Source: Candidatus Altimarinota bacterium (GTDB taxonomy: Bacteria > Patescibacteriota > Gracilibacteria > JAHISY01). From it: DNA of 52,717 nucleotides. How positions within the stretch are numbered: the first letter of the stretch is position 1; every line of letters begins with the position of its first letter. The DNA is taken from assembly GCA_021735425.1 (NCBI GenBank), contig JAIPGZ010000007.1, forward strand, positions 1 through 52,717, given 5' to 3'. The translations under genes were made by a program, and so were the position numbers. The notes beneath the pieces are model-generated. The model did no database searches. It had not been told where the DNA came from and saw only the letters and a program-made list of their open reading frames with translations. This document shows, one piece after another, positions 34,711 to 38,021 of this stretch.

Positions 34711-34738
34711 TTGCATTTACCTTTAAAAAAGCTAAAAT
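34711..34738 (+). promoter_or_regulatory. Promoter of the metA leader
   Basis: TTGCAT (34711-34716), a 16-nt spacer and GCTAAAAT ending at 34738. The start codon of the leader peptide follows after 7 nt, so the transcript should begin at or just before that AUG. Confidence 0.65.
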
Positions 34739-34745
34739 AAACACA

Positions 34746-34793
34746 ATGTTTTCTACACGCAATAGCAACGCAATGATGATGCAACTCTCCTGA
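34746..34793 (+). CDS. Methionine-rich leader peptide of the metA operon
   Basis: The 15-residue peptide is MFSTRNSNAMMMQLS. Codons 10-12 are three consecutive AUG (34773-34781). It starts 7 nt after a -10 box, so it should be translated from the very 5' end. Its stop codon (34791-34793) overlaps the antiterminator strand GAGAGCTT (34792-34799). A ribosome paused at the Met codons leaves that strand free, and one that reaches the stop codon covers it. This is the arrangement of amino-acid attenuators such as trp, his and leu, here with methionine as the sensed residue. The peptide is not expected to have another role. Confidence 0.7.
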   Translation: MFSTRNSNAMMMQLS

Positions 34794-34850
34794 GAGCTTG
34801 CTTCTTCCGTGTGTAGAAATCTAAGCTCTCCAAGTCGAGAGCTTTTTTAT
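34750..34850 (+). promoter_or_regulatory. Methionine attenuator (antiterminator and alternative folds)
   Basis: GAGAGCTT occurs twice, at 34792-34799 and 34837-34844. Both can pair with AAGCTCTC at 34823-34830, giving either an antiterminator (first copy) or a terminator (second copy). An outer helix TTTCTACAC (34750-34758) with GTGTAGAAA (34811-34819), extended to 11 bp with one G-U, and AGCAA (34764-34768) with TTGCT (34798-34802), would hide the first copy when the leader is not translated. No T-box or SAM-riboswitch signature is seen. Confidence 0.7.
34823..34850 (+). terminator. Attenuator terminator upstream of metA
   Basis: AAGCTCTC-CAAGTC-GAGAGCTT forms an 8-bp stem and is followed by TTTTAT. 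It lies between the leader peptide and metA with no other gene to terminate. Confidence 0.85.
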
Positions 34851-34884: not shown

Positions 34885-35790
34885 ATGCCAATCCGAATCC
34901 CCAATAATTTACCGGCCAAAAAATTACTCGCCAAAGAGAATATTTTTGTGATGGGTGAAAAACGCGCGGCGAAGCAAGACATTCGACCACTCGAGATCGC
35001 GCTACTAAACCTCATGCCGACCAAAGTAGAGACTGAAACTCAGCTCGCGCGAGTCCTAGGCAACACTCCCCTGCAGGTCAATTTCACATTGCTCACGACA
35101 GATTCCTACCAGCCCAAGCATACTTCGAAGCAGCATCTCATTTCTTTTTACAAAACTTTCGCTGATGTCAAAGATAAGAAGTTCGACGGCTTAGTCGTGA
35201 CTGGTGCTCCTGTGGAATTATTAGACTGGTCAGAAGTGAAGTACTGGGATGAATTGAAGCGAATTTTCGATTGGAGTGTCACGAATGTTTGTTCTTCGTT
35301 ATTTATTTGCTGGGGAGCCCAGGCAGCCTTACAGCACTTCCATAAAGTCCCTAAACATAAATTACCGCAAAAAAAATTCGGTGTGTTTCTGCATCGTGTG
35401 AAAAAAAAGAATGCAATCTTGTTGCGTGGTTTCGATGAGGAATTTTGGGTGCCAGTGTCGCGCAATACTGAAACTCGCGCCGAAGATCTGAAAAAAGTGA
35501 AAGACCTGGAAATCCTCGCTGATTCCAAAGATTCCGGCGTCTACCTCGTGAGGAATAAAAAACGCAAACAGATTTTTGCCTTCAACCATCCCGAGTATGA
35601 CCGTGAAACTTTGCTGACTGAATTCGAACGTGACCGCGCCAAAGATGCGAATTTCCCAGAGCCAGAAAATTACTTCGATGAAAAAGGTAAACTTCTCATG
35701 CGCTGGCAAGCTCATACCACTCTGCTTTTTTCTAATTGGTTGAATTATTACGTTTACCAAGAAACTCCGTTTGATCTTTCTAAGATTTAA
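34885..35790 (+). CDS. metA: Homoserine O-acyltransferase (MetA family, probably acetyl-CoA dependent)
   Basis: Activates homoserine for methionine synthesis. The 301-residue protein is a typical MetA, with PIRIPNNLPAKKLLAKENIFVM, RPLEIALLNLMPTKVETETQLARVLGNTPLQV, the nucleophile Cys142 in SSLFICWGAQAAL, and His/Glu in FNHPEYDRETL. Residue 111 is Glu (TGAPVE111LLDW). In the family, Glu at 111 goes with acetyl-CoA use and Gly with succinyl-CoA, so homoserine O-acetyltransferase is inferred. That agrees with metY downstream, which uses O-acetylhomoserine. Expression appears to be governed by the upstream Met leader attenuator. The ATG has no Shine-Dalgarno sequence. cysK follows after 9 nt. Confidence 0.94.
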   Translation: MPIRIPNNLPAKKLLAKENIFVMGEKRAAKQDIRPLEIALLNLMPTKVETETQLARVLGNTPLQVNFTLLTTDSYQPKHTSKQHLISFYKTFADVKDKKFDGLVVTGAPVELLDWSEVKYWDELKRIFDWSVTNVCSSLFICWGAQAALQHFHKVPKHKLPQKKFGVFLHRVKKKNAILLRGFDEEFWVPVSRNTETRAEDLKKVKDLEILADSKDSGVYLVRNKKRKQIFAFNHPEYDRETLLTEFERDRAKDANFPEPENYFDEKGKLLMRWQAHTTLLFSNWLNYYVYQETPFDLSKI

Positions 35791-36732: not shown

Positions 36733-36742
36733 TTTTTTTGAT

Positions 36743-36755
36743 TAAACTATCTCCA
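36743..36755 (+). promoter_or_regulatory. Possible internal leaderless-type promoter of metY
   Basis: TAAACT at 36743-36748 ends 7 nt before the metY ATG at 36756. No good -35 is evident, so it may be chance. Confidence 0.3.
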
Positions 36756-38021
36756 ATGACTCCAAAAAAACTACATCCCGAAACTTTGGCAATCCACGCT
36801 GGTCGCACGGAAAATGAAGCGAACGCTTGCGCGACGCCGATTTATCAGACCGCGAGCTTCAATTTTGATTCAACGAAAGATGCGGCGGAACTTTTCGCAT
36901 TGAAAAAAGCGGGCAATATTTACACGCGAATGGGTAACCCAACCACCGAAATTTTAGAAAAACGCATCGCGGCAATCGAAGGTGGCTCGGCAGCCGTCGC
37001 GACCGCAAGTGGCATGGCCGCAATCTCGCTTGCAATTTTGACTTTGGCGAAATCCGGCGATCACATTATTTCCTCGACCGCACTTTACGGCGGGACGGAA
37101 ACTTTGTTTCGCCACACGCTGCCAAAATTTGGAATCGAGGTCGAATTCGTCGAGCAATTGGATGCTGTGAAATTGGCAAAACTAATTCGACCCGAAACTC
37201 GGGCAATTTATTTCGAAACAATCGGCAACCCAGCAGGTGAAGTTTTGGACTTTGCAGAAATCGCGAAAGTCGCGAAAAAGTTCAAAATCCCAATCGTCGT
37301 AGACAATACTTTTGCTCCGATTTTTTGCCAGCCAATTAAGTTTGGCGCAAATGTCGTCATCCACTCTCTGACGAAATGGATTGGCGGACACGGCACCTCA
37401 ATCGGCGGAATTTTGGTAGACGGCGGAAATTTCGATTGGAAGGTTAATCCAGAATTCGCGAAAAAAGATGAAAGCTACCACGGTTTGAGGTTCGGAAGCT
37501 TGGGAAAAGTCGCCTTCGCGACGAAAGCTCGCGTCGACGGTTTGCGGAATCTCGGAGCCTGCCTCTCCCCTTTCAACGCGTGGCAATTTTTGCTCGGCGT
37601 CGAGACACTCGGTTTGCGGATTCGGAAGCATTCGGAAAACGCCATCGCCCTCGCTAAATTTTTGGCGAAACATCCGAAAGTCGCGTGGGTCGATTTCGTC
37701 GGTCGGCGGGGTCACTCTTCTCATAAAAATGCGCGGAAATATTTTGAAGACGGTTTTGGTTCAGTTTTCACTTTCGGTTTAAAAAAAGGTGAAAAAGCCG
37801 GCGTGAAATTTATCAACTCGGTCGAACTAGCAAGCCACCTCGCCAATGTCGGTGATGCCAAAACTTTAGTAATTCACCCCGCCTCGACGACCCATTCGCA
37901 GTCTTCGAAAAAAGCCCTGAAGGCAGCCGGGATTCGACCGGAAATGATTCGCGTCTCGGTCGGTCTTGAGCACATCGAAGATATCAAAGCGGATTTCGCG
38001 CAGGCTTTAAAAAAAGCTTAA
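36756..38021 (+). CDS. metY: O-acetylhomoserine sulfhydrylase
   Basis: A PLP enzyme of the Cys/Met metabolism family that forms homocysteine directly from O-acetylhomoserine and sulfide. The 421-residue protein begins MTPKKLHPETLAIHAGRTENEANACATPIYQTASFNFDS. It has YTRMGNPTTEILEKRIAAIEGG, the PLP region VVDNTFAPIFCQPIKFGANVVIHSLTKWIGGHGTSIGG (Lys of SLTKW) and HPASTTHSQ. The GGHGTSIGGxxVDGGNFDW stretch and the length favour MetY over MetB (about 380 residues). It is last in the metA-cysK-metY operon, after a 23-nt gap. I rejected a slightly longer non-ATG start at 36738. Confidence 0.93.
   Translation: MTPKKLHPETLAIHAGRTENEANACATPIYQTASFNFDSTKDAAELFALKKAGNIYTRMGNPTTEILEKRIAAIEGGSAAVATASGMAAISLAILTLAKSGDHIISSTALYGGTETLFRHTLPKFGIEVEFVEQLDAVKLAKLIRPETRAIYFETIGNPAGEVLDFAEIAKVAKKFKIPIVVDNTFAPIFCQPIKFGANVVIHSLTKWIGGHGTSIGGILVDGGNFDWKVNPEFAKKDESYHGLRFGSLGKVAFATKARVDGLRNLGACLSPFNAWQFLLGVETLGLRIRKHSENAIALAKFLAKHPKVAWVDFVGRRGHSSHKNARKYFEDGFGSVFTFGLKKGEKAGVKFINSVELASHLANVGDAKTLVIHPASTTHSQSSKKALKAAGIRPEMIRVSVGLEHIEDIKADFAQALKKA

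Follow-up and report, generated by a model that had tools for sequence, protein, structure and literature searches.

A methionine-codon leader peptide and predicted transcription attenuator upstream of metA-cysK-metY, with counterparts in a class of Patescibacteria

The metA-cysK-metY operon in the 52,717-nt stretch of DNA analysed here (hereafter, the window) lies behind a short ORF rich in methionine codons, a set of alternative RNA arms and an intrinsic terminator—an arrangement that we interpret, with high confidence, as a ribosome-mediated transcription attenuator sensing charged elongator Met-tRNA. The leader, its arms, the terminator and their conservation are features of the DNA itself, and the switch between the arms was reproduced by modelling. 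The hallmarks of an attenuator are met by a leader ORF rich in the residue of the pathway, an antiterminator that competes with the terminator (2:3 versus 3:4 pairing) and the intrinsic terminator; the further criterion, that a stall selects the antiterminator and arrival at the stop codon the terminator, is satisfied in silico only. The features of the locus are as follows.

34711..34738, plus strand: promoter, with a -35-like TTGCAT, 16 nt and a -10 TAAAAT; found by pattern, with equivalents in G002, G003 and G004
34746..34793, plus strand: leader ORF MFSTRNSNAMMMQLS with its stop codon, 7 nt after the -10 box; orthologues in G001-G004
34750..34760, plus strand: 5' strand of an outer helix, paired with 34809-34819 in the minimum-energy fold
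34773..34781, plus strand: regulatory codons AUG AUG AUG, the putative sensor; two to four consecutive Met codons in 5/5 genus members
34781..34789, plus strand: arm 1, GCAACTCTC, which pairs with arm 2; invariant in five genomes
34792..34801, plus strand: arm 2, GAGAGCTTGC, 5' strand of the antiterminator, overlapping the stop codon (34791-34793); from pair counts
34809..34819, plus strand: 3' strand of the outer helix, from the minimum-energy fold
34823..34830, plus strand: arm 3, AAGCTCTC, common to the antiterminator (with arm 2) and the terminator (with arm 4)
34837..34850, plus strand: arm 4, GAGAGCTT, and T-run, the 3' strand of the intrinsic terminator; from a terminator scan
34885..35790, plus strand: metA, homoserine O-acetyltransferase/O-succinyltransferase family (MetA); NF047918, 454.9 bits against a cut-off of 460.5, and TIGR01001
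35800..36732, plus strand: cysK, cysteine synthase A; TIGR01139, 467.9 bits, above cut-off
36738..38021, plus strand: metY, O-acetylhomoserine/O-acetylserine sulfhydrylase; TIGR01326, 601.4 bits, above cut-off (the true start may be a later in-frame ATG)

The initial annotation had placed a promoter, a leader ORF, alternative arms and a terminator upstream of these three genes, and each element was recovered. At base level, TTGCAT occupies 34711-34716 and TAAAAT 34733-34738, separated by the proposed spacer of 16; the 15-codon ORF MFSTRNSNAMMMQLS runs from ATG to TGA at 34746-34793 and carries the predicted ATG ATG ATG at 34773-34781; and GAGAGCTT does occur twice (34792-34799 and 34837-34844), with AAGCTCTC at 34823-34830 as the partner of both copies. 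A terminator scan likewise detected the proposed hairpin at 34823-34844 with its T-run, so that the whole terminator (34823-34850) sits between the leader ORF and the first gene. The promoter pair was found by pattern (2 matches in the window versus 0.1 expected) and fails a generic promoter scan, which needs 9/12 matches. The leader RNA folds better than 200/200 dinucleotide shuffles (z = -3.6), and its minimum-energy fold contains the outer helix that had been suggested between 34750-34760 and 34809-34819. One arm had been overlooked: GCAACTCTC (34781-34789) pairs with GAGAGCTTGC (34792-34801), which completes the classical 1:2, 2:3 and 3:4 set of arms 1-4.

On this arrangement, RNA polymerase would start at or beside the AUG and a ribosome would load on the leaderless end of the transcript. 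With Met-tRNA scarce, the ribosome is expected to halt at the AUG run and mask arm 1, so that arm 2 can pair with arm 3; this would block the terminator and let metA-cysK-metY be transcribed. With ample Met-tRNA, the ribosome should reach the stop codon within arm 2 and release arm 3 to arm 4, and their pairing would stop transcription at the T-run. That ribosomes actually stall, that initiation is leaderless, that transcripts terminate and that the system responds to methionine are inferences made without RNA or expression data. Among leaders with a promoter matching at least 9/12, the -10 box lies 7 nt from the start codon in 10/18 and 4-10 nt in the rest, and this spacing suggests that the transcript, whose end was not measured, probably begins at the AUG or a few bases from it; we infer that the leader ORF is probably translated leaderlessly.

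The predicted behaviour was modelled by folding the RNA codon by codon, with both the ribosome footprint (up to A-site +11) and the whole RNA upstream of it kept unpaired. For the window, the terminator had a probability of 0.00 at the first Met codon, 0.43 at each of the second and third, and 0.94-0.95 at the following codons up to the stop; immediately before synthesis of arm 4, arm 3 was sequestered at 0.99 with the ribosome at Met versus 0.36 at the stop. Across 22 leaders, the antiterminator was lost, in the sense of dropping below its midpoint, 2-8 codons (median 3) after the last Met of the cluster. As a control, the spacer between the footprint at the last Met and arm 3 was shuffled 200 times per leader, and 17/22 leaders were matched by at most 4/200 shuffles (combined p about 1.6e-19, relatedness uncorrected). 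A further 14 leaders, found via a different gene and mostly from other families, gave differences of 0.47-0.94. The agreement was not uniform: in equilibrium folding the terminator probability stayed high at the Met codons of G318a, G139, G138, G389a and G389b, the arm-3 effect being present in the first four and absent in G389b, and in several leaders only this kinetic measure switches. The initial inference—that ribosomes starved of Met-tRNA stall at the AUG triplet and permit read-through—is thus borne out in outline by the modelled switch.

The folding model also bears on what happens without translation. Ribosome-free RNA of the window and most leaders terminates, while that of G001, G004, G144, G133b and G005 prefers the antiterminator; counterparts of the outer helix fold in G002 and G003 and are absent from the minimum-energy folds of G001 and G004. 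The earlier proposal that the outer helix enforces termination in the absence of translation holds, then, for the window and these two genus relatives, and it does not extend to the five leaders that favour the antiterminator, which implies that the outcome of no translation differs between species. The same five leaders lend some weight to an alternative in which the element senses general initiation or slow translation, e.g., the supply of fMet-tRNA or formylation, rather than elongator Met-tRNA: leaderless starts depend on initiator tRNA, and in these leaders a loss of initiation alone would induce as well. If initiation were the signal, however, the start codon alone would suffice, yet runs of 2-6 internal Met codons are maintained just before arm 1, and the free RNA of the window and most leaders terminates. 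We regard this alternative as improbable, although it is the strongest competitor to a sensor of elongator Met-tRNA.

An equivalent leader was present in 5/5 genus genomes searched and in one genome of a sister genus. Two relatives whose MetA proteins are 83 and 81% identical to that of the window (G002 and G003) have MTKSFRAIEMMQLS and MKNSYCAAEMMQLSN at the corresponding position. Two others, G001 and G004, have no metA, and their leaders, MFSLLLANGMMMQLSN and MFSTFSANEMMMMQLSF, were located via the exact motif ATGATGCAACTCTC at a locus flanked, as in the window, by rmuC and a gene for nicotinamide-nucleotide adenylyltransferase; there, an ORF with a NIL domain and a threonine-synthase-like PLP enzyme stand behind the leader in place of metA-cysK-metY. 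The same locus and leader with other genes indicate that the leader was kept and the operon exchanged. In the sister genus (G005), MKYLSTNSRMMQMMMLLSRGLVFGR, with a GTG start, precedes a MetY/cystathionine-gamma-synthase-like gene. The promoters of G002, G003 and G004 read TTGCAT/TTGCTT-16-TATAAT/TAAAAT, and the distance from the end of the -10 hexamer to the AUG is 7 nt in 5/5 genus genomes. Pair counts, made on concatenated arms given that a whole-leader MAFFT alignment misplaces arm 4, showed 94 and 100% of cells paired in the five aligned sequences versus at most 67% in slid controls. One column shifts jointly in arms 2, 3 and 4, from C/G/C to G/C/G, in 2/5 genus members; this covariation rests on a single column, may reflect one event and does not clearly exceed the shuffle controls. 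Within the family, ATGATGCAACTCTC was rejected as a marker of the regulon, having returned only known leaders and coding noise.

The gene pair behind the Met leaders of G001 and G004 (L128 and L129; NIL, PF09383, and the threonine-synthase-like PLP enzyme, PF00291) is, by inference, a candidate O-phosphohomoserine-dependent homocysteine synthase. The homocysteine synthase in question may be MetM-like, with the PLP enzyme belonging to the kind that PMC12172450 attributes to Hasebe et al. 2024. Elsewhere in the window's own genome, two tandem ORFs resembling the MetE C-terminal domain (G000:C19:401-2292; L161 and L166) were noted, and no Met leader with a terminator was seen upstream of them.

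Leaders in the wider class were located by pattern and family searches, with no genome-wide census of leaders. The metA gene occurs in 17/353 class genomes, and 14 of these 17, from families f1, f7, f8, f11 and f33, carry a Met-rich leader and a terminator ahead of it (examples are MLFRGFTAMMQMMMQFRSELGSF, MVLLSFSFGMMMNMQMQRPGGVIL and MQKNIMAMGMMMNEETRRSK); the leader stands directly upstream of metA in all but G140, where it precedes a homocysteine S-methyltransferase-metA pair. The initial annotation had named relatives with metA but without Met codons or alternative arms as a refutation; both are kept in these 14/17, and the three exceptions share no leader of this kind at all. Homocysteine S-methyltransferase (PF02574) was found in 26 class genomes, with a Met leader and terminator at 15/26 loci, 14 of them directly upstream (G140 is counted in both sets). 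This search added families f14, f20, f25, f29, f30, f32 and f34, for a total of 12. In relatives without metA the leader thus stands ahead of other methionine genes, and the genes behind leaders—metA-cysK-metY in the window, and PF02574, HTS and Cys_Met_Meta_PP members in relatives—make methionine. A Met leader was also sought at 30 metK and 15 MetE-like loci, where none was found; MetQ was absent. TGA is read as sense in part of the class, from which we infer that it may correspond to Gracilibacteria/Absconditabacteria.

Tandem leaders precede metA in G318, two units were found in G316, and in G389, which belongs to a different class of the phylum, Met leaders also come as a tandem pair. Where a single metA gene is preceded by two complete units of leader and terminator in series, these lie at 303-611 of L012 (G318) and, on the minus strand, at 6556-6835 of L058 (G389; reverse-complement coordinates). 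In two families a Met leader stands before an unassigned FAD/NAD-binding oxidoreductase-like ORF, at 8232-9692 of L056 (G316) and 2809-4211 of L064 (G133; minus strand, reverse-complement coordinates), possibly an unknown methionine or sulfur gene. Another, in L139 (G238; 327-1450), precedes a methyltransferase-like ORF, with a homocysteine S-methyltransferase about 1 kb further on.

The methionine bias of the leaders was assessed with one enrichment detector applied identically to every residue (threshold, four residues in eight codons). Met passed in 8/15 class metA upstream regions and any other residue in at most one, and the same detector found a Met leader in 0/32 metA regions from outside the phylum (about 32 genes). 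Within the leader ORFs, ATGs number 101 in frame versus 1 and 1 in the other frames. The frame of each ORF was picked for its Met content, which biases this census and overstates the contrast, though not to the extent of 101:1:1.

Methionine genes are classically controlled by SAM riboswitches, and a small-molecule riboswitch for SAM or methionine, with the ORF incidental, has to be weighed; a SAM-I riboswitch does lie just upstream of metA in 2/20 non-phylum loci scanned (L019 and L030). In the window, however, an Rfam scan returned only a tRNA, and no riboswitch or T-box was matched there or at the 18 phylum loci scanned; membership of these covariance-model families was accordingly rejected. 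Apart from in-frame ATGs and alternative arms, no evident sequence is common to leaders from different families, the ATGs are biased in frame, and the switch point follows the Met codons, all of which speak against a ligand-binding RNA and leave this explanation with even slimmer prospects than one based on initiation. The idea of a terminator that arose by chance or is constitutive, beside a spurious ORF, can scarcely be entertained, as the comparative evidence contradicts it. The window's genome holds 18 copies of ATGATGATG, so that an isolated instance means little, but the remaining 17 include no leader plus terminator upstream of a methionine gene, and the arrangement recurs before methionine genes in 12 families and at none of 30 metK loci.

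Attenuation by a Met-codon leader remains the preferred reading. Elsewhere, methionine genes are controlled by SAM riboswitches, Met T-boxes and MetJ/MetR-type regulators. The SAM-I riboswitch (RF00162) and the Met T-box also act on these genes through transcription termination; their signals, SAM or uncharged tRNA, are read directly and need no translation, and neither element was found at these loci. The trp, his, thr, leu, ilv and phe attenuators of Proteobacteria resemble the present leaders in their short residue-rich ORF, three to four competing arms, intrinsic terminator and biosynthetic operon, but the Met leader uses the initiator amino acid, has its ORF probably at the 5' end of the transcript and belongs to Patescibacteria. 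Leaderless starts of leader ORFs combined with attenuation are shared with Actinobacteria, namely leuL, trpL and ilvL of Streptomyces lividans (PMC8079986) and the attenuators of Corynebacterium and Mycobacterium (PMC1262725), although no RNA element was reported for actinobacterial methionine operons (PMC1262725). The sole methionine leader peptide matched in the open-access library searched is the weak, putative metL that precedes metNIQ in S. lividans, likewise leaderless and proposed to be methionine-dependent (PMC8079986). It differs in having two internal Met, scattered over 29 residues, a transporter operon, no typical terminator and a single species, with neither a Met run nor conserved alternative arms reported (PMC8079986). 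The suggestion that such a leader is undescribed stands within that library only, and with metL on record; within that scope, the kind is classical attenuation, and we take the Met version, with its class-wide spread, to be new.

We infer that homologous or convergent leaders govern metA, homocysteine S-methyltransferase and MetY-like genes through much of the class, and other methionine genes are probably under such leaders too. With less assurance than for the window itself, we lean towards a broader view: much of this Patescibacteria class, which is probably Gracilibacteria, would rely for its methionine regulon on leaderless Met-codon attenuators, some stacked two in series, instead of SAM riboswitches, T-boxes or repressors. 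The presence of a leader could then flag methionine genes that have escaped recognition; one example would be the NIL plus threonine-synthase-like pair, as a homocysteine synthase. Methionine seems awkward for sensing by a leader peptide since initiation itself requires it; the class-wide set indicates that attenuation can serve for methionine nonetheless. The leaders would give this group, for which metagenomes are almost the only source, a first concrete regulatory circuit. They would also offer a test case for the coupling of leaderless translation to RNA polymerase, and a handle on methionine genes where the pathways of a genome are patchy.
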